Source: Dysgonamonadaceae bacterium
GTDB lineage: Bacteria > Bacteroidota > Bacteroidia > Bacteroidales > Azobacteroidaceae
Assembly: GCA_031256775.1 (NCBI GenBank)
Contig: JAIRPX010000072.1
Coordinates: 1 to 47,415, forward strand
Length of the DNA: 47,415 nucleotides
Direction of reading: 5' to 3'
Every line of letters begins with the position of its first letter. Positions within the stretch are counted from its first letter, which is position 1. Positions 7,161 through 35,880 of the stretch are shown here, one piece after another. The notes beneath the pieces are model-generated. The model saw nothing but the letters and a program-made list of their open reading frames with translations, made no database searches and was not told where the DNA came from. The translations under genes were made by a program, and so were the position numbers.

Positions 7161-7576
7161 TACCTAATACTAATTTTTTGTTTCTTATACTCAAAAAAAT
7201 GGCAAATAATGATAATACGATGAACGAGACACGATAAACGAAGGTGCGAAAGCGCGAAAGCATGAAGGCTCGAATCGTCATTGCGAAGGCGAAGCCTGAA
7301 GCAATCCAGTAAAAAACTAAAAGATAAAAACTGAAAACTGAAGACTAATTCTGTCTCGTAATTGCGAGCGTTAGCGAAGCAATCCAGAACTGAAAACTGA
7401 AAACTGAAAACTGAAAACTAAATTACTGGATTGCTTCGCAAACGCTCGCAAAGAACGTCATAAAAGCGTCACGGTGTGCAAATCCGCGCCAGCAAATTCC
7501 TAATTCTTAATTCCTGTCAGTTTTTCGTTATTACAAAAAACAACTTTGGTAGGTTTTTTATGTATTTTCAACCAAC
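7161..7576. repeat. Repeat-filled divergent intergenic region
   Basis: There is no gene here. REP-like units lie at about 7277-7310 (gaaggcgaagcctgaagcaa form), 7361-7388 (gagcgttagcgaagcaa form) and 7425-7460 (inverse orientation). Between the last two is a 7-bp tandem run of ctgaaaa, about four copies at 7390-7420. Sequence near 7215-7265 resembles, inverted, 10470-10500. The region separates the divergent exporter operon and sensor kinase. Confidence 0.75.
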
Positions 7577-18964: not shown

Positions 18965-21727
18965 ATGCTTAAATATTGCCCTCGCCTTTGTGTAATAGTT
19001 CTGATTTTCATTCTGTTAGCCTGTACTGAAAAGCAAAAAATTTATACCGTTGGCGTTTCCCAGTGCAGCAACGATGAATGGCGTAAGAAAATGTGTGTCG
19101 AAATGCAGCAAGAAGCGATGCTCCATCCCGATATGCGTTTGGAAATCAGATTAGTAGCCGACGACACCGAGAAACAAATAGCTGATATTCAAAGTTTTAT
19201 CGACAGAAAAATTGATTTGATTATCGTTGCTCCAAACAAAGCCGCACCTGTTACGCCAGTTGTGGAAAGGGCTTATAACGCCGGTATTCCCGTGATTCTG
19301 GTAGATAGAAAAGTGCTTTCCGACAAATACACGGCTTTCATCGGCGCTGACAATTACCAAATCGGTGAAGATGTTGGTAATTATATAGCCAAATTGCTCA
19401 ATGGGAAAGGTAATGTCCTGGAAATATGCGGTTTGGAAGGTTCGTCGCCTGCTTCAGAACGCCATCAGGGTTTTATCAGCGCAATAATTAAGCACGAGAA
19501 TATCAATTTACTGCAATCGGTTGATGGGGCATGGCTCAAAGATATAGCCGAAAATAAAATGGAAGATGCAATGCGCATATTTCCGGAAATTGACGTGGTT
19601 TATTCTCACAACGATCGTATGGCAATGGGCGCATACAGCGCTGCTGTAAGGGAAAATAGAGCAAGCAATATCGCTTTTGTAGGCATCGACGCCTTGCCTG
19701 GAACTGATGGCGGAATAGAACAGGTGCTGGAAGGCAAACTCAAAGCAACATTTATTTATCCTACCAACGGCGAAAAAATCGTACAGCTGGCTGCCGATAT
19801 TTTACACAATCGCCCGTTTGAAAAAACTAATGGACTGTATTCCAGCATTGTGGACGAAACAAATGCCCGTGTGCTGAAACTTCAAACAGACATTATAATT
19901 GAGCAGGACAATAAAATAGGTTTTTTGAATGGAAAAATTGATTCGTATCTTACGCAGTACACAACTCAACGATATTTATTACTTGTCGCGATAATTGTCG
20001 TTGCATTGTTTGTCTTGTTTTTTATATTGATTTTCAGAGTATTAAACTCTAAAAACAGGTTAAACAGGGAAATGGCAAAACGCAACGCAGAAATAAATCG
20101 CCAAAAAGAACTGACCGAACAGCAACGCGACCAATTAATTGAGCTTTCAAAACAATTGGAAGAGGCTACTCAGGCTAAACTCGTCTTTTTTACAAATATA
20201 TCGCATGAATTTCGCACTCCGCTTACTTTGATTTCGGGACCGATTAATTCCCTTTTGGCTGATAAAAATATTTCGCGCGAAAATATCCGCTTATTGTCGC
20301 TGGCAAAGAAAAATGCCAATATCCTTCTCGAATTAATCGACCAGATAATTGATTTCCGAAAATACGAAAACGGTAAAATGAAACTCCATCTTTCATCGCA
20401 TAATCTTTATAATCAATTAAACGAATTAAACGAATCTTTTTATGAATTAGCCAAACATAAACATCTAAATTTCAACTTTTTAGCCACAGGAAATGATTAT
20501 GAGATGATTTACGATATGGAAAAAATGGAACGTATTTATTTCAATCTGTTGTCTAACGCTTTCAAATTTACGCCGGAAAAAGGCTTTATCTCTGTTGATT
20601 TAAACAAACTTTACAGCGAAAAAGGCAATTTTGCCATGCTGAAGATTTCAAATTCAGGGAGAGGAATTTCAAAAAACGACCTTAAACACATTTTTGAACG
20701 CTTTTATCAAGTTAATTCGCAGGCTGGAGGCTCTGGCATCGGCTTGGCTCTTGTCAAAGCTTTGGTTGAATTGCACGGCGGCAAAATTTCAGCCGATTAC
20801 GATGAAACTGCTGCTGTGAACACGTTTTATGTTGCTATTCCCATTCTTTCAGATAAAAATGCAGAAAATGCAATTCAAAATCAATATAAAAAATTGACAG
20901 GAAATACGGAATTTCTAAAAGAAACGAAAGATGATTATATATTTGATAATGAAATAGATAAAGAAAACGAACTTATACTTGTTATTGATGACAATCCGGA
21001 TATTCGCTCATATATTAAGACCGTTTTGCAAAATCAATATTCCATAATCGAAGCAAAAGACGGCGCAGAAGGACTGCGAAAAGCTTTCAAATATATACCC
21101 GACCTCATTGTGAGCGACGTAATGATGCCGCCGCCCGACGGTATAGAACTTTGCCGCCGCCTGAAATCTGAACTTTCAACTAACCATATTCCTGTTATCC
21201 TGCTGACAGCCTATTCGTTAGATGAACAAAAAATTACCGGTTTCGAAAGCGGAGCAGACGATTTCATCGCCAAACCATTTAATTCGGACATATTGGAAGT
21301 GCGGATTAAAAACTTGATTGAGAATCGTAAAAATTTGAAAAATGCTTTCCAGAAACATTTTCCTGTTGCAGAAAACAAAGAAATTTTGAATGATACAGAC
21401 AAAAATTTCATTGAAAAACTGAAAACGCTGATAGAGAAAAATATTTCCAATACAGATTTAAATGTGGAAGATTTGGGACAAAACATAGGGCTTTCGCGTA
21501 CGCAGCTGTATCGCAAAGTAAAGAACATAACAGGTTATTCGCCGGTGGAATTACTAAAAATCATTCGTTTGAAGAAAGCATTTAAATTATTGACTTCCTC
21601 TGAATTAAGTATCTCTGAAACAGCCTACGAAACGGGATTTACATCGCCTTCATATTTTGCAAAATGTTTTAAGGAGCATTATAACGAAAGCCCTACGGAC
21701 TATTTAAAGAGGCTAAAAAATTTATAG
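18965..21727 (+). CDS. Hybrid two-component regulator with periplasmic sugar-binding sensor
   Basis: This 920-residue protein is a complete signalling chain. An N-terminal signal or lipobox-like segment (ILLACTEK) leads into a LacI/ribose-binding-type periplasmic domain (about 28-310: YTVGVSQC, IIVAPNKAAP, FIGADNY). TM about 336-360. HisKA H414 is in ISHEFRTPLT, and HATPase has NLLSNAFKFTPE and GSGIGLALVK. A receiver domain has D718 in VSDVMMPPPDG, and an AraC helix-turn-helix pair ends the protein. In the HATPase G1 box the usual Asp is Asn (SNSGRGIS). Sensors with this fold bind monosaccharides or short sugars directly. It should activate the susC promoter just downstream. Confidence 0.95.
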   Translation: MLKYCPRLCVIVLIFILLACTEKQKIYTVGVSQCSNDEWRKKMCVEMQQEAMLHPDMRLEIRLVADDTEKQIADIQSFIDRKIDLIIVAPNKAAPVTPVVERAYNAGIPVILVDRKVLSDKYTAFIGADNYQIGEDVGNYIAKLLNGKGNVLEICGLEGSSPASERHQGFISAIIKHENINLLQSVDGAWLKDIAENKMEDAMRIFPEIDVVYSHNDRMAMGAYSAAVRENRASNIAFVGIDALPGTDGGIEQVLEGKLKATFIYPTNGEKIVQLAADILHNRPFEKTNGLYSSIVDETNARVLKLQTDIIIEQDNKIGFLNGKIDSYLTQYTTQRYLLLVAIIVVALFVLFFILIFRVLNSKNRLNREMAKRNAEINRQKELTEQQRDQLIELSKQLEEATQAKLVFFTNISHEFRTPLTLISGPINSLLADKNISRENIRLLSLAKKNANILLELIDQIIDFRKYENGKMKLHLSSHNLYNQLNELNESFYELAKHKHLNFNFLATGNDYEMIYDMEKMERIYFNLLSNAFKFTPEKGFISVDLNKLYSEKGNFAMLKISNSGRGISKNDLKHIFERFYQVNSQAGGSGIGLALVKALVELHGGKISADYDETAAVNTFYVAIPILSDKNAENAIQNQYKKLTGNTEFLKETKDDYIFDNEIDKENELILVIDDNPDIRSYIKTVLQNQYSIIEAKDGAEGLRKAFKYIPDLIVSDVMMPPPDGIELCRRLKSELSTNHIPVILLTAYSLDEQKITGFESGADDFIAKPFNSDILEVRIKNLIENRKNLKNAFQKHFPVAENKEILNDTDKNFIEKLKTLIEKNISNTDLNVEDLGQNIGLSRTQLYRKVKNITGYSPVELLKIIRLKKAFKLLTSSELSISETAYETGFTSPSYFAKCFKEHYNESPTDYLKRLKNL

Positions 21728-21732
21728 TCAGG

Positions 21733-21768
21733 AGTAGCTATACTTTACACGATGCCGTTTTGTCAATG
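21733..21768. repeat. Solo fragment of the REP-like repeat flank
   Basis: Sequence starting gctatactttacacg right after the hybrid sensor stop codon matches the left flank of the repeat pair at 28441-28565, including a ttttgt then caa segment. The palindromic core is absent, so this is a decayed or partial copy. Confidence 0.6.
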
Positions 21769-21918
21769 CAATTTTATCCATAATAACACTAACATTATAA
21801 CGCCCGCAATTACAGGTATTTAATTATGATCTTTTATTACTTTGGTTTATTAACAATATCGCTTGGAGATATATTTTTAAAATATAATGTACCATTCATT
21901 AAAATATTTGCTAATATA

Positions 21919-21950
21919 TTTGGTATTAATAAAATTATCTATTACTTTTG
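21919..21950 (+). promoter_or_regulatory. Bacteroidota-type promoter of the susC operon
   Basis: TTTG (21919-21922), a 20-bp spacer and TACTTTTG (21943-21950) match the phylum consensus. The box lies 47 bp before the ATG of SusC. A site for the AraC domain of the hybrid sensor would be expected upstream, in the AT-rich 21780-21915 stretch, but I could not identify a clear direct repeat. Confidence 0.7.
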
Positions 21951-21997
21951 GATGATTTTTTAATATTGCAATACCATTGACATTATATATTTATTTT

Positions 21998-24900
21998 ATG
22001 GAAGATTTATATAAACGGACAAATCAAAACAGGCTAAACCTGTTTGTTTTAAGGAAAAGACGTTTGCTTCTGTTTCTGCTTCTGTTAGCGGGTTCGGTCG
22101 CCGCCAGGGCGCAACAGTCAAAACGTGTGGAGGGTACTGTTACCGACGGGCAAAATGTTTCCATACCGGGAGTATCCGTGTTAGTCGAAAAATCGACGCG
22201 CGGAGTGACGACCGACTTAGATGGAAGCTATTCTATTGATGTGAAACCGACAGACAGACTGACTTTTTCATATCTTGGCTTTGAAAGTCAAACTGTTGAG
22301 GTGGGCGCAAAAACCCGAATCAACATAGTGTTGAAAGAAAAAGGCAATCTTCTGGACGAAGTTACTGTGGTTGCATACGGACACCAGAAGAAAGCAAGCG
22401 TTATCGGCGCTGTTACTACGGTTAACACAGGCGATTTAAATGTTCCTTTCGGTCATCTGAGCCATTCTTTTGCAGGACAGATTCCGGGAGTGATAGCTAT
22501 CCAGCGTTCGGGAGAACCGGGAAGCAGCGCGGAATTTTGGATTCGTGGGCTGGCTACGTTTAACTCCAACGCTCCGCTGGTCCTGGTAGATGGGATAGAG
22601 CGTTTGCCCGACCTTGTTGACGTGGAAGATATTGCCAGCCTCACCGTTCTGAAAGACGCCACAGCAACGGCGCTGTATGGAGTGCGGGGAGCTAACGGGG
22701 TTATGCTGATTACAACTAAAAAAGGAAAGGAGGGCAAAACTCAAATCAGTTTTAAAGCAGAATATGGTTTGATGGCTCCAACTTACGTTCCGGAAATGGC
22801 GAATGCGGAAGAATGGATAAATGCCTACAACCTCGTTTTTGCAGAAAACAACAATGGGCGTGTGGCATATACTCAGGAAGACATTCAAAAGTACGTGAGC
22901 GGCAACGATCCCGATTTGTATCCCAATATTAACTGGATGAAAGAAATATACAAGGATTTTACCGACAGTCACCGGTTTGCCGCCAACGTGAGTGGCGGAA
23001 ACAAGACTGTTCGCTTTTATGCTTCCGGTTCATACTACAACGAAGACGGTATTTATAATGTGGCAAGAAACAGGGACTACGATGCGACGCTGAATTATTC
23101 CCGCTACTCATTCCGTTCCAACGTGGATATTAACCTGCACAGGGATCTGGTTTTAAACCTGAATATTGCCGACTCATACGAAGTTAAAAACAATCCCTAT
23201 GCCAACGGGCTGTCAATCTGGATACAAACATATATGGCTGTGCCGATTTCAACTCCTAAAATATTTTCCAACGGGATGCTGGCTCAGCCCAAAAACGGAC
23301 ACAATCCGTATTATTTGCTTAACAGTACGGGATATACCCAATATTTTAAAAATACTGCGCAGTCGCTTGCCGGATTAACCTACGATTTTTCAAATACCCT
23401 TCTGAAAGGATTAAGCGGAAACATTAAATTTTCGTGGGACGTGATTAACGAATCAAGTACTACACGACAGAAAAGACCTAATACTTATTATGTTATGGAT
23501 CCTGCTAATGGAAGAGACGAAGAAGGAAACCTCCTCTTGACCCAAAACGTACAGGGTTTCAATTATATGGTAAGCAGTAACTGGGGAGCCGGCACGCGAA
23601 TAATGTATCTCGAATCGTCGCTTACATACGATCGCCTTTTTTCGGACAAACACAGGGTAGGCGGACTGCTCATGTACAATATGCGCGATCTTTCAAATAA
23701 CATGCCCGGCAGTTACCTGCAATCTTTGCCTTATCGTTATCTTGGTGTGGCAGGACGTGTAACCTATTCTTTTAAGGATACTTATTTCATTGAAAGCAAT
23801 TTTGGGTACAACGGTTCCGAAAACTTTGCGCCCGGAAAACGTTTTGGATTCTTTCCTTCGCTGGCGCTTGGATATATCGTTAGCAACGAACCGTATTTCC
23901 ATCATTTACTTCCTGTTATCAATTCGCTGAAAATAAGAGGCTCAAATGGAAAGGCTGGAAACGACCAGATAGGAGGAGGCAGAAGATTTGCATACAATCC
24001 TGAAATGCTGGTGGGCAGCAATTCATATTCATGGGGAAGTACCGGACAAACATACCGGTCGGGAATTTCAACCGGATATCCAGGAAGTCCGGGCGTTTCG
24101 TGGGAAGTGGCAAACAAATCGGATATAGGCATTGAAATGGGGCTATTTCGCAAACTGACGCTCCAAATGGATTATTTTTACGAACACCGGACAGGTATTT
24201 TTATTGAACAGCAAAGTTATGCCTCCATCGTAGGCAAGCCTTTACGCCCTTATGTAAATCTGGGTGAAATGAAAAACCAGGGTATGGACGCATCTCTTGT
24301 TTTTGAAACAAATATAGATCAGGTGAAAATCAGAACGCGCGGGAATTTCACATACGCGCGTAATCAAAACCTGTATGACGATGCTCCTGCGCCGCGAATG
24401 CCCTATCTCGACAAGGTTGGCAAACCATGGTATCAGCAGTTTGGACTTGTAGCAATCGGACTTTTTGAATCGGAAGAAGATATTGCCAACAGTCCCGAAC
24501 AGAAATTTGGAAAAGTAAGGGTGGGCGATATTAAATTCAAAGACGTAAATGGCGACGGAGTAATTGATTCCGACGACCGTATTGCAATGGGATACACGCA
24601 TGTGCCTGAAATCAATTATGGATTTGGAATATCCGGCGAATGGAAATCTTTTCGTCTTTCAGCTTTCATGCAGGGAGTGGCTCACGTGACAAACTGGGTG
24701 GATGGAGTGCCTCTCAACGGTTTTGAACAGTCTAATATTCCCAATATGGGGCTTTACAGAGACGTAGCCCTGAATAGCTGGACGCCCGACAATCCTAATC
24801 CAAACGCTAAATATCCGCGCCTGGCAATGCCTACAAGCGAAAACAACAAACAACTCTCTTCATGGCGACAGGATACGAGGGCGTTTATGCGATTGAGCGA

Positions 24901-25096
24901 AATACAGTTGAATTACGATTTTCCTAAAAAGCTGGTTAACAAAGCGGGAATGGAAGCTGCATATATCAGGCTGTCAGGTGTAAACCTGTTTACTTTTTCT
25001 AAATTCAAACTCTGGGATCCTGCATTCACAAATTCGCAGGGCGACTCTTATCCAAATAACAAGAGTATTACGGCAACATTAGGTCTTAACTTTTAA
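21998..25096 (+). CDS. SusC/RagA-family TonB-dependent outer membrane transporter
   Basis: This 1032-residue protein begins at ATG 21998; a TTG-initiated frame from 21977 is less likely. The signal peptide ends near VAARAQ. It is followed by the carboxypeptidase-regulatory-like domain (VEGTVTDGQNVSIPGVSV), a TonB-box region (LDEVTVVAYG), a plug (GVRGANGVMLITTKKG) and a 22-strand barrel. Typical SusC motifs such as GDIKFKDVNGDGVID are present. It imports oligosaccharides through the outer membrane with its SusD lid, driven by TonB. Substrate cannot be read from sequence. Confidence 0.97.
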   Translation: MEDLYKRTNQNRLNLFVLRKRRLLLFLLLLAGSVAARAQQSKRVEGTVTDGQNVSIPGVSVLVEKSTRGVTTDLDGSYSIDVKPTDRLTFSYLGFESQTVEVGAKTRINIVLKEKGNLLDEVTVVAYGHQKKASVIGAVTTVNTGDLNVPFGHLSHSFAGQIPGVIAIQRSGEPGSSAEFWIRGLATFNSNAPLVLVDGIERLPDLVDVEDIASLTVLKDATATALYGVRGANGVMLITTKKGKEGKTQISFKAEYGLMAPTYVPEMANAEEWINAYNLVFAENNNGRVAYTQEDIQKYVSGNDPDLYPNINWMKEIYKDFTDSHRFAANVSGGNKTVRFYASGSYYNEDGIYNVARNRDYDATLNYSRYSFRSNVDINLHRDLVLNLNIADSYEVKNNPYANGLSIWIQTYMAVPISTPKIFSNGMLAQPKNGHNPYYLLNSTGYTQYFKNTAQSLAGLTYDFSNTLLKGLSGNIKFSWDVINESSTTRQKRPNTYYVMDPANGRDEEGNLLLTQNVQGFNYMVSSNWGAGTRIMYLESSLTYDRLFSDKHRVGGLLMYNMRDLSNNMPGSYLQSLPYRYLGVAGRVTYSFKDTYFIESNFGYNGSENFAPGKRFGFFPSLALGYIVSNEPYFHHLLPVINSLKIRGSNGKAGNDQIGGGRRFAYNPEMLVGSNSYSWGSTGQTYRSGISTGYPGSPGVSWEVANKSDIGIEMGLFRKLTLQMDYFYEHRTGIFIEQQSYASIVGKPLRPYVNLGEMKNQGMDASLVFETNIDQVKIRTRGNFTYARNQNLYDDAPAPRMPYLDKVGKPWYQQFGLVAIGLFESEEDIANSPEQKFGKVRVGDIKFKDVNGDGVIDSDDRIAMGYTHVPEINYGFGISGEWKSFRLSAFMQGVAHVTNWVDGVPLNGFEQSNIPNMGLYRDVALNSWTPDNPNPNAKYPRLAMPTSENNKQLSSWRQDTRAFMRLSEIQLNYDFPKKLVNKAGMEAAYIRLSGVNLFTFSKFKLWDPAFTNSQGDSYPNNKSITATLGLNF

Positions 25097-25108
25097 TAAT
25101 TAACAACA

Positions 25109-27049
25109 ATGAAAAATCAATTCAAATACTGGATTTTATTCCTTATACCGCTTGCTTTTGCTTCTTGCGAAGATTATCTGAATCACTACCTGAAAGATCA
25201 AATATCGCTGGAAGAAACATTTGCAACAAGAGAGGGAGTTGAAAGATATTTGGCGAATGTTTATTCTTTCCTTCCAAACGATTACGAACAGGTTGACGCC
25301 AATACTTCCACAACAAGCCGCTCGGACGAAGCTTATTTTTCGTGGACAACATGGGTCAACTATCTGAAATTCAACAACGGTTCATGGACGCCTGAAACGC
25401 CAAACTATCACAATTGGGAAAGATATTACAAGGGCATCAATCAGGCTTCCATCTTTATGGAAAACATAGATTTATGTTTGGAAATATCGTCAACCGCAAG
25501 GGAGCAAATGAAATCTGAAGCGCGTTTTTTACGGGCATATTACTATCTTATGCTGGTACAGCAGTATGGTCCTGTTTTTGTCTGGGGCGACCGCTTATCG
25601 GATGAAAACATCGACTGCAACACGGTTGACCGTCATCCTATGGATTCATGCATCAATTTTATTGACGGCGAAATGCAAAAAGCCGCTCTTTCCCTTTCAT
25701 TAACAACCAACGGTAGCGAATGGATGGGACAGGCGACAAAAGGTATTGCACTGGCTGCCCGCGCACGACTATGGCTGTATGCTGCACGTCCCCTGTATAA
25801 TGGCTGTACATGGTATGTGGGAATGAAAAATTATTATGGCGATTTCCTTTTTCCTCAAACGCCTAATCCCGTGAAATGGCGAAAAGCGGCAGAAGCAGCA
25901 TGGGAAGTTATAAACCTCTCATCAGACGGCATTAATCCTCTGTATAAACTGTATGCGACTTCCGACGCCGATTCTATTACAAGAGCAAACCGCTCATATT
26001 CGGGAGTTTATTTTACGCCATGGAATACGGAAATTATTTTCGGACGCTGGGAAGGCGACGGAGCTTCCTGGAATAGAAGGGCTTTGCCGCCTGAAATAGG
26101 TCTGAACTACGCTTATGGAGGATATTCGCCTTCGATGAAACTTGTGGATACATATCCCATGCAGGCTACTGGAAGATTTCCTGTTACAGGATATGAACGC
26201 GACGGCTATCCTGTTATTGATCCTTTGTCGGGATACAGGGAAGAAGGTTTTACGGAAAACTACGTTCATCCTTTCGACGGCGACGATAACGGTAGCTTGA
26301 AGATAAAGGCGCACAACAGTTGCGTAGGACGCGACGCACGTTTCTATACTTCCGTGTTTTTTAGCGGCATGTATTGGATTAACAAGAAATTCGTCAGGGA
26401 AAGAAAGGCTGCCGGAGCTATTGGCGGACAACCGGTAACTTTCCATATTACAGGAACTTCGCCTTTTTCAAATAAAACGGGAGACTACGTGAAAAACGGC
26501 TATCTTTTTCGACGTCTAACCAATCCAAATTCTGATACGCAGTCGGGGGCATGGGGAAACTATTCATGGGCTTATATACGCCTGGCGGAAATTTTCCTCA
26601 GTTATGCCGAAGCGTGGATAATGATGGACGAATCGGATCGCGACGCACTTAAAACAGCCGGTTATGCTTCAGGAATCGAATACTGGAACAAGATAAGGGA
26701 ACGGGTCAGCCTGAACAAGATAGAGAACGCATATCCCGAAATAAATTTCAATGATTATTCTTCGGTCAATCAGAAAAAAATGATTGATCTCTTGCTGAAA
26801 GAAAGAATGGTGGAAATGGCTTATGAAAATCTCCGCTATTACGACATTCGCCAGTGGATGATGGGCGAAAAGGAAAGTAACGGTCCCAGATATGGAAGGA
26901 ATTTACTGGCAAACAGTTATGAAGATTCGTGGACGCGAACTTCTAAAATATGTTTCCCCATTGTATGCCTGAAAAAGCATCACCTTTTCCCGATATATCA
27001 GGGACAGATAAATGAAATGAGAAACATAACTCAAAATTACGGATGGTAA
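25109..27049 (+). CDS. SusD/RagB-family glycan-binding lipoprotein
   Basis: This 646-residue surface lipoprotein has lipobox FASC, with the acylated Cys at residue 20. The SusD core is clear: an N-terminal TPR-like helical region with SEARFLRAYYYLMLVQQYG, aromatic-rich loops, and a C-terminal segment with RLAEIFLSYAEAW and ERMVEMAYENLRYYDIRQW. It caps SusC and captures glycan. It is 12 bp downstream of susC and longer than classic SusD (about 550), consistent with extra binding loops. Confidence 0.96.
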   Translation: MKNQFKYWILFLIPLAFASCEDYLNHYLKDQISLEETFATREGVERYLANVYSFLPNDYEQVDANTSTTSRSDEAYFSWTTWVNYLKFNNGSWTPETPNYHNWERYYKGINQASIFMENIDLCLEISSTAREQMKSEARFLRAYYYLMLVQQYGPVFVWGDRLSDENIDCNTVDRHPMDSCINFIDGEMQKAALSLSLTTNGSEWMGQATKGIALAARARLWLYAARPLYNGCTWYVGMKNYYGDFLFPQTPNPVKWRKAAEAAWEVINLSSDGINPLYKLYATSDADSITRANRSYSGVYFTPWNTEIIFGRWEGDGASWNRRALPPEIGLNYAYGGYSPSMKLVDTYPMQATGRFPVTGYERDGYPVIDPLSGYREEGFTENYVHPFDGDDNGSLKIKAHNSCVGRDARFYTSVFFSGMYWINKKFVRERKAAGAIGGQPVTFHITGTSPFSNKTGDYVKNGYLFRRLTNPNSDTQSGAWGNYSWAYIRLAEIFLSYAEAWIMMDESDRDALKTAGYASGIEYWNKIRERVSLNKIENAYPEINFNDYSSVNQKKMIDLLLKERMVEMAYENLRYYDIRQWMMGEKESNGPRYGRNLLANSYEDSWTRTSKICFPIVCLKKHHLFPIYQGQINEMRNITQNYGW

Positions 27050-27076
27050 ATACAATTATTTTAAAACTGAAAAATC

Positions 27077-28438
27077 ATGAAACGAACAGTGTTTTACTTA
27101 TGCGCTCTTTTACCGGCGCTTGCTTTTCTTGGATGCGAAGATAACCGGATGCAGGGAATGATTGATGACAGGGTGTGCCTGCTGAAATCTGATTATTTGC
27201 AGGTTCCGGTCATCAATTTTGGCGTTTACGAATATCCTGTCGTCGTATCGAAGGGAGGCATAAAAGATCAGGAAGCAGTGGTATCTTTCAAGGTCAACAA
27301 AAATTACCTTGACGAATATAATGATTTGTACGATGCTTCCCTGGAACTGCTTCCGGAAGACTGTTACAAAATGCCCCCTACCCTGACTATTAAGGGCGAG
27401 GAACTTACAGGAACGGTAAAAATAATTTTTAACACGCAAAAAATATATGATTTGCAACAGTCGAAAGAACATTATGTTTTGCCGTTAGAAATCGTTTCTG
27501 AAAATGGAATAGCAATTTATTCCGGTAAAAACTATGTAATTCTGTCTGTTATAGTGGAAGAAGCGACTATTGGATTTTACAAGTCCGGATTTACCACAGC
27601 GATGAATTTCACGCCTGGAGATCCGGATGAAATAGAAGGATATACGGAAATCGACCTGAATTATACTGTCGATCATAACGTTATGTTCCAGTTGCAGGTT
27701 GCAGCCGACAGCCTGGAGCGCTACAATCAAATGAATGTTTCGAACTACAAACTCCTGCCTGCCGACGCTTATGTCCTGAATCAGGAAGAATGGCGTGTGG
27801 AAGCCGGTGAAAAAACGGCGAAAATATCTTACAGGATACTGCGGAATAAATTGGTGAACAGCATGGGCGCGCCCAATCTTGACGAATATGTTTTGCCGTT
27901 ACGCATTTCCGAAGTATCTGCATACAAAATTCATCCGCTGACGGCTGTTCAGATGCTCCATTTTTCATATACCGTGAAAGAATTTGAGAAAACAGGATGG
28001 AATATAACCGGCTACAATTCATGCGATAACACGTATCTCCCCGAAAATATTATTGATGGAAATACCGCCACCTTCTGGCGATCGCAAACTGATGCTGCTT
28101 TAATGAAACCGCTGGCGGAAGAGCCTTATTTTATCAGTTTCGACATGTTAAGCAACAAATCAATTTGCCAGATTAAAATAAACCAGAGAACGGGAAATTC
28201 CGGCAACAGGAATCTTAAAGTCGGCTATTTTGAATACAGCACGGAAGAAACTGACTGGACAAAATTGCAGGGTTCCGATTTTGTGTGGAGCAACCGCGCC
28301 GATACTGTTCAGTACGTGAACATAGCGCCAACCGTAGCCCGCAACTTAAAGATAGTCATGACCGAAGGGTTCAGCGAACTTGTTCAGGGAAAATATGTAA
28401 TCACTCTCAGCGAACTAACCGTATCGGGATATGAATAA
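27077..28438 (+). CDS. Surface glycan-binding lipoprotein with DUF1735 and F5/8 type C domains
   Basis: This 453-residue lipoprotein has lipobox FLGC. Two DUF1735 (BT_3987-like) immunoglobulin-like modules occupy roughly residues 35-300. A discoidin-type carbohydrate-binding domain (F5/8C or CBM32-like) starts near 307 with GYNSC and IDGNTATFWRSQ. Proteins of this layout commonly follow SusD and help hold glycans on the cell surface. It is 27 bp after the susD gene. No catalytic residues are apparent, so it is read as a binding protein. Confidence 0.88.
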   Translation: MKRTVFYLCALLPALAFLGCEDNRMQGMIDDRVCLLKSDYLQVPVINFGVYEYPVVVSKGGIKDQEAVVSFKVNKNYLDEYNDLYDASLELLPEDCYKMPPTLTIKGEELTGTVKIIFNTQKIYDLQQSKEHYVLPLEIVSENGIAIYSGKNYVILSVIVEEATIGFYKSGFTTAMNFTPGDPDEIEGYTEIDLNYTVDHNVMFQLQVAADSLERYNQMNVSNYKLLPADAYVLNQEEWRVEAGEKTAKISYRILRNKLVNSMGAPNLDEYVLPLRISEVSAYKIHPLTAVQMLHFSYTVKEFEKTGWNITGYNSCDNTYLPENIIDGNTATFWRSQTDAALMKPLAEEPYFISFDMLSNKSICQIKINQRTGNSGNRNLKVGYFEYSTEETDWTKLQGSDFVWSNRADTVQYVNIAPTVARNLKIVMTEGFSELVQGKYVITLSELTVSGYE

Positions 28439-28461
28439 TAGCTATACTTTACACGGTTTAA

Positions 28462-28565
28462 TTTTGTGCAACGTCATTGCGAGCGTTAGCGAAGCAATCC
28501 TGTTGTAAATAAATAAATTGCAGGATTGCTTCAGGCTTCGCCTGAAGCAATGACGATGCACAAAA
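28462..28565. repeat. REP-like inverted repeat pair
   Basis: Outer arms 28462-28480 and 28547-28565 are complementary at 18 of 19 positions. The right half carries a perfect 12-bp hairpin, 28525-28536 with 28540-28551, closed by a ttc loop. It sits in a 200-bp gap inside the glycan operon and could trim or attenuate the transcript between its two halves. Confidence 0.85.
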
Positions 28566-28638
28566 CCATGCCGTGCAGAGTGTACAACTGAAAACTAACA
28601 GCTAAATAGTATTATTGATAATTTAATATTTAAATTTT

Positions 28639-31158
28639 ATGAAACGTTTATCTTTTTTTGTAACATTCTTTGTACTTCTTTCAGTAACCATGCTGGCAGA
28701 GCCTGGATTTTTCGGAGCAAAACCCGTTTGGGAAAAGAAGGAAGCTCAAAATTTCCCTTTCATGGGGCAACATGTAACCCGGAATATTACATTCGGTATT
28801 CGGGGCGGGCAGAAAAAATTATATGCAGTATCTCGGCTGGATGCGCCGAATATTCATGTAATCAATGCAGAAACAGGAGATTATAATCCTGATGATGTTC
28901 TACTTTATGATGAGCTTGTGGTTCAGGGCGGTCATTTCGTTTTGAGCGCGGCAGGCATTACCGACGACAATATCCTGATTGCATGTTCGATGTCTTCCAA
29001 CCTGTCGGGCGATGTGCAGAGAATATTCAGGGTATATACCTGGGATACAGACGAAAGCGAAGCGCGGCTACTGATCAATGTTGATAATATTGTCGTAATG
29101 TCGGATAACCTTACTCAGGCGACAAATACCAATACCCGCATAGGCGACAAGATGACCGTGACGGGAAGCATGTCTGATGGAACAGCCAAACTGTATTTTC
29201 CTAATTTTGACCTGCAAACATCGGCAAACAATCCAGGTTTGCATCCTACCATTTATGTATTTTCCATGATTCCCGACGGAAACGGAGGATTCAAATTCAA
29301 CGAAACGCCGACTTTAATCGACGTGCCGATCAATAATCTTGCGGGATGCCGCTACGCATCAGTATCCGTGCTTGCCGACGGCTCATATTTCTGGTCGTCG
29401 CAAGGTAATCTGATTTACTATATCAATGCAAACGGTGAAATACAGGCTTATACTTCCGGAGGAATTGTTGGCGCAGAGGATGCTTCTGTCAAATACATCT
29501 GCAAAACAGGAAATGTGGAATATCTTGCCTATTGCAGATCAGATCATCAACGCGCTGAGATTATCAAGGTTATAAACGGCAACGTTTTTGATTGCGTGAG
29601 AATAGGATACAGCGCAAGAATGGCTGATAATAGCAGCTATCCAAATGATAACGGCACCGGCGACCTGGCTCTGGATCTATCTACGCCTGTTCCTACTTTG
29701 TTTGTACTTTGCACTAATCAAGGCATTGGAGCTTATAAATTGATGCCCGTTACGCAGTATGACATGAGCAATAATATTGAAATTGTATGGGAACAGCCCA
29801 CTATTGATTCCGAATATGCACGGTTGCACGATTTTTTGTGGTCGGGAGCTTACAGTGATAATAAGCCTCCTTATGTGACGCGCGATATTGCCCTGGCAAA
29901 TCACGATGGAAAAAAGATTTTGTATGTGATTAATGCCCTGACCTCTGAATATTCCGGACAATTCGGTATTTACGCCATTGACGCACTTACAGGCGAAGTC
30001 ATCAAAAATTCAAATGATGAAAACCTGAAATTGAAATTGCCCGAAGATGCAATTCTGGATCAGGGAAGCCAGCGTATATGGTCGGCAGCAACTACGGAAG
30101 ATGACGTACTGTTGGTTGCCAATGCAGCTTCGGAGGGGAAAAAGTTCAATATTTATGCTTATGAATCATCAACGGCAGATCCGATTCTGGCGCTTTCCTA
30201 CACAGTTCCCGCAGGAGTAAATCTGGGCGATTACGGAAAAATAAGCGTCATCGGCAAATTCAGGGACGGAACAGCTCGCCTTTATGTAACGGATAATACA
30301 TTCACAGGCGATGATGCTGCCGGAACCGTGCAGGCGAAAGTATATGTTTTCTCCATGAAACAGGAGGGCGATCTTATATTTGACGATAGCGATCCTTTGG
30401 TTGTTGCTTTCAATGCGGGCAGCAGCAAATCGGGAAACAGAACATGGTTTCAGAATCTTTGCGTTTCGGCGCTGAAAAACGGTACTTTCCTTTGGGACGA
30501 TACATTCTTCCCCTTGCGTCATGTTGATTTACAGGGAAATGTGAAATCTGAAGTTAATAAAGATCTGCTTCCCGAAAGAGCTAACAACGGAAGATACATC
30601 GGTATTGATGCACAGTCTAACAGGTATGCCGCCTATTTTGAATATCAGTCGGGGAAAGCGGAAATATACAAAAGTCCGGTTGATAATCTTTCCGGCAATG
30701 GCTGCGAAATAATTGCCAATACAAACAGCTATGCCTATAAATCCTATTTCTTTTTTAATGACGGCGACAACTATTATTATGACGTACCGGAAAGCATTGA
30801 AGCTGCCGGAGGAATTGTAATAGACAAGGAAGAAGATGGAAAACCGGTAGTATATCTGATGGCTCAAAACAGGGGGATAGGCGCTTACCGTTTGAAAGAT
30901 ATAACGATAATAGAAGACCCCGTTTTAATAAAGAATCCTGACAGCTCAAACAGGCAAGCAGTTGTTTCTCAATGGGGTGATGTTCTTAAAGTAACAGGCG
31001 TTGACGTTGCATCTATGGAAATATATTCTGCAACAGGTCAGAGGCTGGCAGTTTCAAAACGGGCGGAAATATCCGTAGCCGGACTGCACGGCGTTCTGCT
31101 TGTTAAAGTAAAAACTGTTGCAGGAAATACGGAAGTTTGCAAATGGATTGTAAAATAA
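28639..31158 (+). CDS. Secreted duplicated repeat protein (DUF4623-like) with type IX sorting tail
   Basis: This 839-residue protein has a Sec signal peptide ending near LAEP. Two copies of a module of about 360-380 residues follow. Paired landmarks are VTRNITFGIRGGQKKLYAV with VTRDIALANHDGKKILYVI, YVFSM twice, and GIGAYKL with GIGAYRL. Blade-like repeats suggest a beta-propeller. The last 70 or so residues (MEIYSATGQRLAVS ... VCKWIVK) resemble a type A T9SS C-terminal sorting domain. The DUF4623 name is from memory and tentative. A cell-surface glycan-processing or binding role is inferred from the locus. Confidence 0.8.
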   Translation: MKRLSFFVTFFVLLSVTMLAEPGFFGAKPVWEKKEAQNFPFMGQHVTRNITFGIRGGQKKLYAVSRLDAPNIHVINAETGDYNPDDVLLYDELVVQGGHFVLSAAGITDDNILIACSMSSNLSGDVQRIFRVYTWDTDESEARLLINVDNIVVMSDNLTQATNTNTRIGDKMTVTGSMSDGTAKLYFPNFDLQTSANNPGLHPTIYVFSMIPDGNGGFKFNETPTLIDVPINNLAGCRYASVSVLADGSYFWSSQGNLIYYINANGEIQAYTSGGIVGAEDASVKYICKTGNVEYLAYCRSDHQRAEIIKVINGNVFDCVRIGYSARMADNSSYPNDNGTGDLALDLSTPVPTLFVLCTNQGIGAYKLMPVTQYDMSNNIEIVWEQPTIDSEYARLHDFLWSGAYSDNKPPYVTRDIALANHDGKKILYVINALTSEYSGQFGIYAIDALTGEVIKNSNDENLKLKLPEDAILDQGSQRIWSAATTEDDVLLVANAASEGKKFNIYAYESSTADPILALSYTVPAGVNLGDYGKISVIGKFRDGTARLYVTDNTFTGDDAAGTVQAKVYVFSMKQEGDLIFDDSDPLVVAFNAGSSKSGNRTWFQNLCVSALKNGTFLWDDTFFPLRHVDLQGNVKSEVNKDLLPERANNGRYIGIDAQSNRYAAYFEYQSGKAEIYKSPVDNLSGNGCEIIANTNSYAYKSYFFFNDGDNYYYDVPESIEAAGGIVIDKEEDGKPVVYLMAQNRGIGAYRLKDITIIEDPVLIKNPDSSNRQAVVSQWGDVLKVTGVDVASMEIYSATGQRLAVSKRAEISVAGLHGVLLVKVKTVAGNTEVCKWIVK

Positions 31159-31179
31159 TAATAATTAAATTGTAAAAGT

Positions 31180-32436
31180 ATGCATACAAACCGAAGAGAA
31201 TTTTTAAAAACATTGGGATGTGTTGCAGCTCTGACGATTATTCCCCGTCATGTGCTTGGTAAAGGCTATATTGCCCCAAGCGATCAGTTGACGAAAGGAA
31301 TTATCGGAGTGGGGAATATGGGGCGTGGTCATGTTGACTACGCCTCAACCCGCCTTGTGGCTGTTTGTGATGTTGACAAAAATCACTTGGAGTTAGGGAA
31401 AAAATTAGTTTCCGACAAAATTGCGGCTTATCATGATTTCCGCGATTTGATTTTAGACAAAAACGTTGATATTGTGCATATTGCCACTCCACCTCACTGG
31501 CACGGGATTATGTCGGTAGAAGCGGCTAAAGCAGGCAAAGATGTCTGGTGTGAAAAACCTATGACGCGCACCATCGGCGAGGGTAAACGTGTGATGGAAG
31601 CCATAAAACAAAACGGACGTATGTTCCGCCTGAATACATGGTTTCGCTTTAAGGATAATTTTTACGGTCTCGGAAGTCCGGTTAAACCTTTGAAAAAACT
31701 GGTACAGAGCGGATTGCTTGGCTCGCCGTTAAAAGTAACCATCAGCAAACACACAGGATTCGACTGGAAATTCTACTGGATTGGCAAAGAACACCTTGAT
31801 CCTGAACCTGTTCCAGCAGAATTAGATTATGATTTCTGGTTAGGACCTGCGCCTTATAAACCCTACAATTCACATCGCGTGCATAGCACTTTTCGCGGAT
31901 ACTGGGATTACGACGGTGGCGGCTTGGGCGATATGGGACAGCATTATATTGATCCGGTACAGTATATTCTGGGCAAGGATCATACCAGTCCTGTAAAAGT
32001 GGAAGTTGACGCACCTCAGCAGCATCCTGATGCTATCGGCGTCTGGCGCTCAATTACTTATACCTACGACGACGGTTGCCAGATCGTTCTCTGGGGTGGC
32101 GATTACGGAACTCCCAATACTCCATATATTGCAGGAAGTAAGGGGAATGTGTATAAGAATTTTGTATGCGATATTCCAGACTGGGAAAAGAAACTTGCCG
32201 ATTTTCCCGAACCTGAACCTCAAATCGGTGACTTCCTGGAAAGCGTGAAAACCAGAAAACCGTTTGCTTTGAACGAACAGAACGGATTTCGTTCAGCTAC
32301 TATCGTTAATATGGGGGTTGTGGCGCTACGCTTGAACCGTACTTTGCATTTTGATCCTGTTAAATTAGAATTTATTAACGATGACGCGGCAAATCGTTTG
32401 CTGGATCAGCCGATGCGTTCTCCCTGGATTATTTAA
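31180..32436 (+). CDS. Tat-exported Gfo/Idh/MocA-family oxidoreductase
   Basis: This 418-residue NAD(P)-dependent sugar oxidoreductase begins with a Tat signal (NRREFLKTLG, then a hydrophobic stretch), so it acts in the periplasm with a pre-bound cofactor, as glucose-fructose oxidoreductase does. The Rossmann motif is GIIGVGNMGRGH, and the EKP catalytic motif is at residues 125-127. The C-terminal substrate domain has GGGLGDMGQHYIDP. Family members oxidise sugar hydroxyls, often at C3. Located directly before the DUF1080 protein, it probably makes or uses 3-keto-sugars. Confidence 0.92.
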   Translation: MHTNRREFLKTLGCVAALTIIPRHVLGKGYIAPSDQLTKGIIGVGNMGRGHVDYASTRLVAVCDVDKNHLELGKKLVSDKIAAYHDFRDLILDKNVDIVHIATPPHWHGIMSVEAAKAGKDVWCEKPMTRTIGEGKRVMEAIKQNGRMFRLNTWFRFKDNFYGLGSPVKPLKKLVQSGLLGSPLKVTISKHTGFDWKFYWIGKEHLDPEPVPAELDYDFWLGPAPYKPYNSHRVHSTFRGYWDYDGGGLGDMGQHYIDPVQYILGKDHTSPVKVEVDAPQQHPDAIGVWRSITYTYDDGCQIVLWGGDYGTPNTPYIAGSKGNVYKNFVCDIPDWEKKLADFPEPEPQIGDFLESVKTRKPFALNEQNGFRSATIVNMGVVALRLNRTLHFDPVKLEFINDDAANRLLDQPMRSPWII

Positions 32437-32457
32437 ACACTTAATACAGAATAAAAA

Positions 32458-35400
32458 ATGAAGAAAATTTTTTCAATATTATATATTGCACTACTCTCAA
32501 CAGGAATAATCCTTGCCCAACAGCCGGACAATCGTACTGCAAAAACGATTATTGCAGATGTGCTGGCTCAAATCCCTGCTCAAAATGAACAACAATTTAT
32601 TCAGCAACAGAAAGAACTGATTTCTACTGGAGAAACGGGATTTATTCAGTTGACAAAAATGTTGGAAAGTCCTGATGAAGGGAATAAAGTCAAAATTGAG
32701 TATGTTTTGAGCGGTTTAACTCATTATGTTTCTGCTCAAGGATTGGAAAAAGAGCGTGTTATTATTGTTAATGCTTTTTTGAATTTATTAGACATAATAA
32801 AAGACGTAAATACAAAAGCATTTGTTATCAGTCAGTTAGGAATAGCCGGAAAAGACGAAGCTGTAGCCAAACTGTCTTCTTACCTGAATGACGATTTTTT
32901 ATGCAAGCCTGCTGCTGCAGCTTTGACTTCCATAAACAGTCCCAAGTCGGGAAAGGCACTATTGGATGCGTTAAATACATTGAAATCCAATCGTTTGAAG
33001 GAAAATGTCGTTTTGTCTATTGCCGAAATGCAGTTTACAGAGGCTGAAAAACCTCTGAAAGAACTGTTGAAAACCGACGACGAAAACCTTAAATCTGCAA
33101 TAATAAATGCTTTAAGTCGCGTTGGTTCGAAAGCGTCTTTGCCGGAGCTGGCAAATGCCGCCGAAAAAGTGCATTATACGCCGGAAAAAACAGGAGCTGT
33201 GAACGCTTATGTTTCTCTTATTAAACGTGTTGTAGAACAGGGTGATAGCGACGTAGCAGAAAAGGCGGCGATTGCCCTGTCGAAAAATGCGGAAAAGAAT
33301 AATCAGATTCAAATAAGGGAAGCGGCTCTGCAAATACAGATGGCGGCAAATCCGTCCAAAGTTCCCGCTCTATTGCGTAATGCCTTGAAAGACAAAAGCA
33401 AAGATTACAGAAATGCTGCACTAAATTATGCGTTAGATTATCTTAATGAACCTCTGTGCAGGGAAATAGCCGGTTACCTGAAAAAAGCGGATAAAGAATT
33501 GAAGTTGGATATACTAAACTGGTTTGTAAGTATTTATGATAATCCAAACACAAAAGGCAATCTTGATTCTTCTTATGGGAAAATATTTGCCGAACAACTG
33601 GCTGATAAACAGTTAGACGTAAAAACACTTGCAGCTGCATTACTGGCAAAATCAGGAAACGAAAAAGATATTGCCGCTTTAGCCAAGCTTTTAATTTCTC
33701 AAGACGAACAGGATATTGCGTTAGCAAAAAAAACTCTGCTTTTTACGAAGGGAAATATTGCTCCCGCTATTGCGCCTCTAATGGATACTGCTTCGGATAA
33801 AGGAAAAATAGCCATACTGGAATTGCTGGCAAGCAGGAAATCGGACAAGCAGGCTTCCATCGCTTTCAAATATATAGACAGCTCTTCTCCCGAAGTTAAG
33901 TCGGCTGCTTATGTTGCTTTGAAAGATGTTGTTGGCGAAAAAGATACGGAGTTTTTGTATAAACTTTTATTGCAGGCTAAACCTGAAAATGTTCTTCCGG
34001 TTCAGAAAGCTCTGATTGCCGCCCTGAAAAATATTCCCGTAGAAAAACAGTCAGAAATAGTTCTGAATCAAATAAATAAAACCCCAAAGGATAAATGGAA
34101 ACTTTTCTATAATGTTTTAGCTTCGCAGGACAACAGTAAAACGCTTAATTTTCTTGTTGAACGTTTTAAAACAGGAGATGCAACAGATAAGGAAGCTGCT
34201 TTTCAGGCATTGTTGAGCTTGCAGGGGTTTGAAATTGCTGGCGAATTGCTGGAAATAAGCAAAGACGGCAATGCTTCCGCCTATTCTAAGCGCGCTTTGG
34301 AACGTTATGTTCAGTTAGTTTCAAACCCTGAAATATCCGGGGAAAATCGTCGGCTGTTTTTAACAAATGCGCTCGAATTGGCTAAAACAGACGAATTAAA
34401 GAATGAAATATTGAAACATATCGGGCAAACCGGCTCATTAATAGGACTTTTGCTGGCTGGCGAATATTTGAATCAGCCTGCGTTGCAACAGTCTGCAGCC
34501 AATGCCGTGATGAATATTGCATTAAATAATGCAAACTGCAAAGGAAAAAATGTTAGAGATCTTCTCGTAAAAACAGCTAAAATATTGAATAATCCTGATG
34601 CAGAATACCAGCGCGAAGCTATTCGTAAACATTTGGACAAAATGCCTCAGGAAGAAGGTTTTATATCTGTCTTCAATGGAAAGGATTTGACAGGATGGAA
34701 AGGTCTGGTGAAAAATCCGCTCGTCCGTGCGAAAATGAAACCGGAGGAATTGGCTAAAGAACAAACGAAAGCCGACGAACAAATGCGCAAGGACTGGAAA
34801 GTTGAAAACGGATTGCTGATATTTGACGGGACAGGATACGACAATATCTGTACGGATAAACAATACGGCGATTTTGAAATGTATATCGACTGGAAATTAG
34901 AACCGAGTGCGGAAGCCGACGCCGGCATTTATTTGCGAGGAACGCCTCAGGTGCAGATTTGGAATACGGCACGAACAGACGTTGGCGCACAAGTTGGCTC
35001 AGGAGGTTTATATAACAACAAAAAAAATCCTTCCATACCGCTCAAAGTTGCTGATAATCAGCTTGGAGAATGGAATAATTTTTATATAAAAATGACAGGC
35101 GACAGGGTAACGGTTATTTTTAACGGTCAATTAGTAGTAGATAACATTATCCTTGAAAACTACTGGGACGCATCGCAACCTGTATCTCCTTTTGAACAGA
35201 TTGAACTTCAAGCACATGGAAGTAAAGTTTATTACAGAAACATTTACGTGAAAGCGCTGGAACGTCCAAAAACTTTTGAATTATCGGCAGAAGAAAAAAA
35301 GGAAGGCTACAAAATCTTGTTTGACGGAACTAACATGCACGAGTGGACGGGAAATACGGTCGATTATATTCTGGAAGACGGATGTATTTCCATGCACCCA

Positions 35401-35880
35401 AGCGAAAGTCATGGAGGCAATTTATATACGGTAAGCGAATATGATAATTTTGTATTCCGCTTTGAGTTCAAGCTGACTCCCGAAGCCAATAATGGCTTAG
35501 GTATCAGAACGCCGCTGGAAGGCGACGCCGCCTATATGGGAATGGAATTGCAGATATTAGACAGCGAAGCTCCTGTATATAAAGATCTTGCACCATATCA
35601 GTATCACGGTTCCGTATATGGAATTATTCCAGCTAAGCGCGGCTTTTTAAAACCAACCGGCGAATGGAATTATCAGGAAGTGATTGCCAATGGCGACAAT
35701 ATCAAGATTACATTGAACGGAACGGTTATTCTAAACGGCAACATCCGGGACGCTGTTAAAAACGGGACGCCCGACAAGCAAAAACATCCTGGACTATTTA
35801 ATAAGAAAGGACATATAGGCTTTCTTGGACACGGGTCGCACGTGATGTTCAAAAACATCAGAATCAAAGAACTGAAATAA
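32458..35880 (+). CDS. HEAT-repeat protein with two DUF1080 (3-keto-glycoside-acting) domains
   Basis: This 1140-residue protein has a signal peptide (IALLSTGIILAQ). Residues about 30-720 are a long alpha-solenoid of HEAT-like repeats. Two DUF1080/PF06439 jelly-roll domains follow, at about 734-945 (FISVFNGKDLTGWKG) and 950-1140 (YKILFDGTNMHEWTG). This family includes enzymes that cleave or hydrate 3-keto-glycosides made by Gfo/Idh/MocA partners. The two domains differ strongly, so they may perform different steps or one may only bind. The solenoid may be a scaffold. It follows the oxidoreductase by 21 bp. Confidence 0.9.
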   Translation: MKKIFSILYIALLSTGIILAQQPDNRTAKTIIADVLAQIPAQNEQQFIQQQKELISTGETGFIQLTKMLESPDEGNKVKIEYVLSGLTHYVSAQGLEKERVIIVNAFLNLLDIIKDVNTKAFVISQLGIAGKDEAVAKLSSYLNDDFLCKPAAAALTSINSPKSGKALLDALNTLKSNRLKENVVLSIAEMQFTEAEKPLKELLKTDDENLKSAIINALSRVGSKASLPELANAAEKVHYTPEKTGAVNAYVSLIKRVVEQGDSDVAEKAAIALSKNAEKNNQIQIREAALQIQMAANPSKVPALLRNALKDKSKDYRNAALNYALDYLNEPLCREIAGYLKKADKELKLDILNWFVSIYDNPNTKGNLDSSYGKIFAEQLADKQLDVKTLAAALLAKSGNEKDIAALAKLLISQDEQDIALAKKTLLFTKGNIAPAIAPLMDTASDKGKIAILELLASRKSDKQASIAFKYIDSSSPEVKSAAYVALKDVVGEKDTEFLYKLLLQAKPENVLPVQKALIAALKNIPVEKQSEIVLNQINKTPKDKWKLFYNVLASQDNSKTLNFLVERFKTGDATDKEAAFQALLSLQGFEIAGELLEISKDGNASAYSKRALERYVQLVSNPEISGENRRLFLTNALELAKTDELKNEILKHIGQTGSLIGLLLAGEYLNQPALQQSAANAVMNIALNNANCKGKNVRDLLVKTAKILNNPDAEYQREAIRKHLDKMPQEEGFISVFNGKDLTGWKGLVKNPLVRAKMKPEELAKEQTKADEQMRKDWKVENGLLIFDGTGYDNICTDKQYGDFEMYIDWKLEPSAEADAGIYLRGTPQVQIWNTARTDVGAQVGSGGLYNNKKNPSIPLKVADNQLGEWNNFYIKMTGDRVTVIFNGQLVVDNIILENYWDASQPVSPFEQIELQAHGSKVYYRNIYVKALERPKTFELSAEEKKEGYKILFDGTNMHEWTGNTVDYILEDGCISMHPSESHGGNLYTVSEYDNFVFRFEFKLTPEANNGLGIRTPLEGDAAYMGMELQILDSEAPVYKDLAPYQYHGSVYGIIPAKRGFLKPTGEWNYQEVIANGDNIKITLNGTVILNGNIRDAVKNGTPDKQKHPGLFNKKGHIGFLGHGSHVMFKNIRIKELK

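Follow-up and report, generated by a model that had tools for sequence, protein, structure and literature searches.

Glycoside breakdown by oxidation and elimination rests on few studied systems. In Bacteroides thetaiotaomicron, BT2158 is a periplasmic glycoside 3-dehydrogenase, without which cells fail to grow on trehalose, leucrose or palatinose (PMC11300592; here and below, statements on published work refer to the cited passages of each source), and BT2157 has been termed a 3-ketotrehalose hydrolase (PMC9007349). The lactose route of Caulobacter crescentus uses the LacABC dehydrogenase for periplasmic C3 oxidation, after which a DUF1080 protein is proposed to hydrolyse the product (PMC9007349). 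The β-eliminases OGE of Agrobacterium tumefaciens and CGE of strain PUE belong to routes that oxidise, eliminate, hydrate and reduce (PMC10628242, PMC13273386), the general logic being elimination and then hydration (PMC10628242). Here we describe a locus with related genes at positions 18965 to 35880 of contig JAIRPX010000072.1 (47,415 nucleotides, the window in the following) from the Dysgonamonadaceae bacterium assembly GCA_031256775.1. The window is one entire contig of an assembly of 3.93 Mb with 89.6% completeness and 6.3% contamination.

All genes of the locus are present and lie on the + strand. A sensor, a SusC transporter, a SusD lipoprotein and a surface lipoprotein (together, the front end) are followed by a duplicated secreted protein of 839 residues (DUP839), a Gfo/Idh/MocA oxidoreductase and a HEAT-repeat protein with two DUF1080 domains. 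The last two genes form an independent two-gene cassette that occurs across Bacteroidota. Our best explanation, to which we assign a probability of about 60%, is that this native module carries out C3 oxidation and 3-keto-glycoside cleavage in the periplasm and has been joined to an imported front end. Polysaccharide utilization loci and 3-keto chemistry are already known; what appears to be new is the pair of a PF19051 oxidoreductase with a HEAT/double-DUF1080 protein and its joining to SusC/SusD, neither of which we found described in the open-licence literature searched.

The closest described system, B. thetaiotaomicron BT2156-BT2160, also combines Gfo/Idh/MocA and DUF1080 proteins, both with export signals, and the characteristic residues are kept in the window proteins. 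The window oxidoreductase belongs to another subfamily (PF19051), however, and two DUF1080 domains are combined with HEAT repeats in one protein; the window locus has neither a TIM-barrel hydratase nor a second dehydrogenase, and it sits behind SusC/SusD. As judged by their sequences, the window proteins are relatives of BT2158 and BT2157, not equivalogs. The proposed route would share with that of C. crescentus a periplasmic C3 oxidation followed by the action of a DUF1080 protein, but LacABC is membrane-bound and not of the Gfo/Idh/MocA type, and the cluster as described in the cited passages has no SusC/SusD. OGE and CGE differ in being TIM-barrel rather than DUF1080 eliminases.

The oxidoreductase-DUF1080 cassette

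The oxidoreductase gene (31180..32436, +) matches PF19051 (GFO_IDH_MocA_C2) with 463 bits (cut-off 23.3), and its product, a predicted glycoside C3 dehydrogenase, has a twin-arginine translocation (Tat) type signal. The solved structures closest to it by sequence are the dehydrogenases 8tdf (3.6e-27) and 8tdh (9.4e-25), presumably of B. thetaiotaomicron origin. Its best match in NCBIfam is the BT_2158_fam glycoside 3-dehydrogenase (NF058561), whose cut-off it misses, and so we rejected the window protein as a BT_2158 equivalog. The adjoining gene (32458..35880, +) encodes the secreted HEAT-repeat protein, a predicted 3-keto-glycoside lyase/hydrolase, with DUF1080 domain 1 at 34657..35253 and domain 2 at 35308..35868 (both +). 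Scored separately against PF06439 (3-keto-disaccharide hydrolase), the two domains reach 139.7 and 138.6 bits (cut-off 26.8). The Gfo/Idh/MocA oxidoreductase with a Tat-type signal and the double-DUF1080 protein read in a preliminary description of this DNA are thus borne out.

A scan of named genomes with an alignment of the oxidoreductase returned at least 586 relatives, the best 80 of which were kept as loci. Counting as partner only a directly adjacent gene on the same strand encoding at least 480 residues, we found 92 pairs, with a median gap of 24 bp: 75 from these best 80 named loci, 16 from the 19 stretches of the window's own family, and the window. Five named loci failed the rule because of contig ends or because an open reading frame (ORF) on the opposite strand had been picked (L070, L080, L110, L118, L123). 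L050, L053 and L054 among the own-family stretches also failed it; L059 lies outside the set. In tblastn searches of the 80 named loci with the window proteins, DUF1080 domain 2 was present in 76, domain 1 in 74 and the HEAT part in 70, SusC in 13, SusD in six and DUP839 in none. Hosts of the cassette include Parabacteroides, Dysgonomonas, Dyadobacter, Chitinophaga, Pedobacter, Sphingobacterium, Larkinella and Sediminicola. The HEAT/DUF1080 protein occurs in 19 of 45 genomes of the window's family (its own included), mostly adjoining the oxidoreductase and with mostly different flanks, and a close oxidoreductase (E ≤1e-100) in 12 of 395 genomes sampled from the window's class, again including its own. 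A separate enzyme pair, widespread in Bacteroidota and predicted to use oxidation and elimination, may join the few systems studied; if it is active, counts of glycoside hydrolases (GHs) would overlook part of the glycan-degrading capacity of this phylum.

An unbroken same-strand run of SusC and SusD precedes eight of the 92 pairs. It could have been missed in 20 pairs with less than 5 kb of upstream sequence; the other 72, with 5 kb or more, again give eight, and in ten of them SusC and SusD both lie on the same strand no more than 8 kb away. L083 reads SusC, SusD, TIM barrel (PF01261), oxidoreductase, HEAT/DUF1080; the TIM-barrel gene, assigned by Pfam in L083, also adjoins the pair in L076 (assigned by cluster only). 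In a maximum-likelihood tree of the oxidoreductases, the SusC-SusD label needs eight changes for its eight rows, likewise when only well-supported branches are used, and it is clustered no better than shuffled labels. The simplest reading of this scattered neighbourhood is eight separate joinings; alternatively, there may have been fewer gains and more losses. The preliminary description had taken the whole locus to be dedicated to glycan degradation by C3 oxidation. As stated, this is not supported: across Bacteroidota the two enzymes come as an independent bicistron, rarely found behind SusC and SusD. What stands of that interpretation is the enzyme pair with its signal and residues, and the lack of a recognisable GH or polysaccharide lyase (PL).

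Across the 92 oxidoreductases, K126, D251 and H255, which we take to be the catalytic positions of the superfamily, are each present in 91. The Tat motif is found in 89, and the remaining three retain the RR. The window oxidoreductase groups with rows of its own genus, and the cassette therefore looks native to this genome. Its nearest neighbour by branch is L077, from a metagenome-assembled genome (MAG) labelled Prevotellaceae, and it is 89% identical to L042; further close matches occur in MAGs labelled Prevotellaceae and Tannerella.

Residues of the DUF1080 domains were counted after dropping copies of <48% identity, alignments of ≤170 columns and proteins of ≤480 residues, so that the counts, window included, are weighted to close relatives. 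In domain 2, Glu1030, Gln1032, Asp1035, His1050, Asn1071, Asn1087 and His1110 are present in 93/93 copies and His1125 in 92/93. In domain 1, His920 is kept in 86/87, and all 87 have Gln (Gln831 in the window) at the site where domain 2 and four single or BT2157-like DUF1080 proteins carry Glu. His1125 is the 16th residue from the C-terminus, the place that His275 would take in a 290-residue protein such as BT2157. In a B. thetaiotaomicron 3-keto-O-glycoside lyase, the H275N change impairs hydration (PMC13273386); we infer that this lyase is BT2157 and that His1125 corresponds to His275. Among solved DUF1080 structures, the best match of domain 2 is 4jqt (9.1e-23), with 8tda and 8rr2 at 7e-10. 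Domain 2 has both the candidate catalytic His and the conserved Glu. The main catalytic role more likely falls to domain 2; domain 1, as altered, may serve binding or one half-step.

Both DUF1080 domains are present in 82 of the 92 partners. Five have domain 2 only (L055, L058, L114, L135, L136), four have domain 1 only (two at contig ends, L073 with a split ORF, and L056), and L057 has neither; the HEAT part is short or missing in nine, in which the first DUF1080 domain starts before residue 350. Thus, domain 2 is better kept than domain 1, though not universally, and the idea that it is never lost is wrong, given L056 and L057. The proteins of L055 (G040:C102) and L058 (G042:C150) are HEAT/DUF1080 proteins with domain 2 and without domain 1.

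We propose that the Tat route would export the oxidoreductase already folded, with its nicotinamide cofactor. In the periplasm the enzyme would oxidise C3 of a glycosyl unit, and the DUF1080 protein would then break the 3-keto-glycoside bond, probably by elimination and subsequent addition of water. Re-reduction of the 3-keto sugar by the same oxidoreductase may close the redox cycle; we suggest such recycling because, to our knowledge, there is no free nicotinamide adenine dinucleotide (NAD) in the periplasm. Sugar would be taken in by the imported front end.

Genes of 3-keto type stand at more than one site in the window's genome, given a BT_2158_fam/DUF1080 pair and a DUF1080-TIM-barrel fusion. 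The former comprises a true BT_2158_fam member (862 bits; L165:266-2688, contig C209) adjoining a DUF1080 gene. The latter (L164:2007-3533, contig C317) combines DUF1080 with a xylose-isomerase-like TIM barrel (PF01261) in one protein and lies beside a Gfo/Idh/MocA gene; it is a candidate for a natural lyase-hydratase fusion.

Front end, sensor and possible substrate

Pfam and NCBIfam agree with the preliminary description on the four front-end proteins. The sensor gene (18965..21727, +) encodes a hybrid two-component sensor/regulator with Peripla_BP_4, HisKA, HATPase_c, response regulator and HTH_18 domains in Pfam, the first being a periplasmic sugar-binding sensor domain. The SusC/RagA outer-membrane transporter (22001..25096, +) scores 915.9 bits with TIGR04056 (NCBIfam), and the SusD/RagB lipoprotein (25109..27049, +) 145 bits with PF07980 (Pfam). 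The surface lipoprotein (27077..28438, +) combines BT_3987-like_N (DUF1735) and F5/8 type C domains (Pfam). The ATG at 22001 is a likelier SusC start than the listed TTG at 21977. The locus thus has the SusC-SusD pair and sensor of a polysaccharide utilization locus, and lacks a recognised GH or PL of its own. None of its seven proteins reached the cut-off of a GH or PL model in Pfam or NCBIfam (for the sensor, the best 25 of 202 NCBIfam families), and on these models we rejected a concealed GH or PL of a classical family. Two outcomes had been named beforehand as grounds for abandoning the 3-keto interpretation: such a match, and catalytic residues missing from both DUF1080 domains. Neither was found.

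Within the window's family, the best full-length relative of SusD is 37% identical, whereas other families have relatives with 43-54% identity, and the front end from sensor to lipoprotein therefore looks imported. The two related front ends tested elsewhere come with other enzymes: in L207, the closest, GHL10, phosphodiester glycosidase and DUF4855; in L209, melibiase, GH97 and GH3. In L075 (Parabacteroides), a front end with 49% identical SusC and 47% identical SusD is followed by a second Gfo protein with a single DUF1080, and then by the cassette.

The sensor domain (19013-19960) has its best match in PDB 2x7x (E 7.9e-109 over 305 residues; runner-up 9.8e-31), which we take to be the fructose sensor BT1754; a BT1754-like sensor gives a direct first guess at the substrate class. 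We fetched 15 related-sensor loci, mostly the best, of 38 other matches listed. GH32-like genes are present in 12 of them (Pfam-confirmed in three); the others have a PL8-type lyase (L257), a BNR-repeat (sialidase-like) fragment (L260) or neither (L267). Fructose is thus likely, though not certain, to be the signal, to judge from the sensor match, and a fructose-containing substrate is a bold guess from the match to 2x7x and the GH32-like genes near its relatives. BT1754 has been described as the sole known hybrid two-component system (HTCS) that senses monomers (PMC3878776).

The fructan utilization locus with HTCS_Fru (BT1754) resembles the window locus in these two respects, sensor match and GH32-like genes near the sensor's relatives. 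It differs in that the window locus has no GH32, fructokinase or major facilitator superfamily transporter, and SusC/SusD of another type. A more specific proposal, which we regard as doubtful, is a fructose-sensing uptake locus that uses the 3-keto route in place of the usual GH32 hydrolases, acting on glucosyl-fructosides (sucrose or its isomers). SusC/SusD would import the sugar, the glucosyl unit would be oxidised at C3, elimination would take place in one DUF1080 domain, the other would assist the addition of water, and fructose released in this way would be the inducing signal.

A 17-bp sequence, TAGCTATACTTTACACG, stands upstream of SusC (21735..21751, +) and again upstream of DUP839 (28439..28455, +), and is a candidate shared control site. 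Across the 3.93-Mb assembly, its 16-bp core is found at these two places and nowhere else. In 200 mononucleotide shuffles, the longest match between both upstream regions was 11 bp; other intergenic pairs have longer common stretches, apparently the dispersed repeat described below. We dismissed TAGCTATACTTTACACG as an operator conserved with sensors of this type: among the 15 related-sensor loci, matches with up to four mismatches occur only in L260 (four) and L266 (three and four). Given that these loci have no close copy, an operator role is a guess. The locus may comprise two transcription units, with the 200-bp gap 28439-28638 between them. Spacers of 21 bp separate DUP839 from the oxidoreductase gene and the latter from the DUF1080 protein gene, and with the common 17-bp sequence they make it plausible that the module is tied to the front end within this genome.

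Weighing the alternatives

It is possible, though on the unlikely side, that the two halves of the locus are neighbours only. The uptake locus would then end at the lipoprotein (28438) and have its enzymes elsewhere, and the cassette would serve some other periplasmic purpose, for instance the scavenging of glycosides in general. Such an arrangement agrees with the 200-bp gap, with the GH32 and GH43 genes that the genome carries on a different contig, and with the other enzymes behind the two related front ends tested. Since a SusC-SusD run is rare upstream of the cassette and the 16 related front ends fetched come without DUF1080, the link could be chance. The 21-bp spacings, the presence of TAGCTATACTTTACACG before both units and the Parabacteroides locus L075, with its related front end, Gfo and DUF1080, argue for a connection instead. 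Several observations weigh against a joined 3-keto module. Of the 72 pairs with 5 kb or more of upstream sequence, 64 lack a SusC-SusD run, and no DUF1080 match was found in any of 16 fetched loci with a related front end. The oxidoreductase scores 144.9 bits with BT_2158_fam, far under the cut-off of 750, and for domain 1 on its own the matches to solved DUF1080 structures are weak (best 2.8e-07). TAGCTATACTTTACACG has no close copy in the 15 related-sensor loci. A complementation screen of the BT2158 deletion with libraries including Parabacteroides johnsonii names, in the cited passages, BT2158, BT4448 and a B. uniformis homologue as expected hits (PMC11300592), and deletion of BT2157 or BT2158 in B. 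thetaiotaomicron reportedly caused no defect on raffinose-family sugars (PMC11501099). Finally, G041, a genome of the window's family, carries two cassette copies, L056, with domain 1 only and its His position changed, and L057, with no DUF1080 domain. L056 combines this His change with the longest branch of the oxidoreductase tree, so decay is possible.

The G041 copies also speak for a second alternative, in which the DUF1080 domains are CBM66-like binding modules and the oxidoreductase needs no partner, working for instance as a redox isomerase or, in the manner of GH109, as an NAD-dependent glycosidase. The models for DUF1080 and CBM66 overlap (PMC5673643), and domain 1 invariably has Gln for Glu. 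We nevertheless consider this improbable, because Glu1030, Gln1032, Asp1035, His1050, His1110 and His1125 of domain 2 are (almost) invariant and at least one DUF1080 domain is present in 91 of the 92 partners. The GH109 acid-base loop motif, taken as GGHGG from the title of one cited reference, is found in none of the 92 oxidoreductases, the window's included, and GH109 identity was rejected. More improbable still, in our estimate, is that DUP839 is an unrecognised GH or PL that makes the first cut. A protein without a family above cut-off or a PDB match up to E 1, and probably secreted, leaves room for such a role, but DUP839 is rare, which we judge to be unlike most catalytic families. It also has a weak similarity to DUF5018, and a DUF5018 protein occupies the same position in L207, though direct comparison of the two was not significant and we do not regard DUP839 as a relative of that protein. 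For DUP839, we consider a binding function more likely than a catalytic one. The periplasmic 3-keto module joined to an imported front end remains our preferred explanation.

The duplicated secreted protein and other features

DUP839 (28639..31158, +) had been described as secreted and duplicated. The duplication is clear: its halves are 24% identical over 383 columns and align with 75.9 bits, while none of 60 shuffles exceeded 25.8 bits. DUP839 is probably secreted, given its signal-like start and a tail resembling those of the type IX secretion system (T9SS), although with 14.7 bits it does not reach the cut-off of 23 for the T9SS model TIGR04183. The similarity to DUF5018 (E 0.0021) is likewise below cut-off. 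Relatives were found in four of 45 genomes of the same family, the window's included, and in a sample of 295 genomes of the order only in the window's own, which has two DUP839 paralogues. G041 has a partial relative followed by SusC and SusD (L168). Two genomes have half-size relatives of 441-444 residues: in G022, SusC/SusD genes lie nearby, and in G044, the 14 kb fetched contain none; one of 441 residues passes TIGR04183 with 27.6 bits. These half-size relatives (L169-L170, G022 contig C69; L171, G044 contig C124) belong to large loci that encode several secreted proteins of a single kind, Tat-type in appearance.

Scans of the window for sigma-70 promoters and terminators gave counts no different from shuffles. 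A Bacteroides-type promoter-like site, TTTG-N20-TANNTTTG, lies upstream of SusC (21919..21950, +); the pattern has four matches in the window against 1.89 expected, and 13 of 100 shuffles reached as many, so that the excess is weak. A dispersed repeat around CGTCATTGCGAGC occurs at window positions 7276, 7357, 10359, 17692 and 28472. With up to two mismatches, CGTCATTGCGAGC has eight matches in the window, where one is expected; its copies are scattered through the window, and we dismissed it as a control site.

The GH genes of this genome that lie outside the window include a GH43 protein with a DUF1080-like domain adjoining GH32, both with T9SS tails (L167:2886-9760, contig C216). Within the window, panB and a radical-SAM gene lie 3' of the DUF1080 protein gene.

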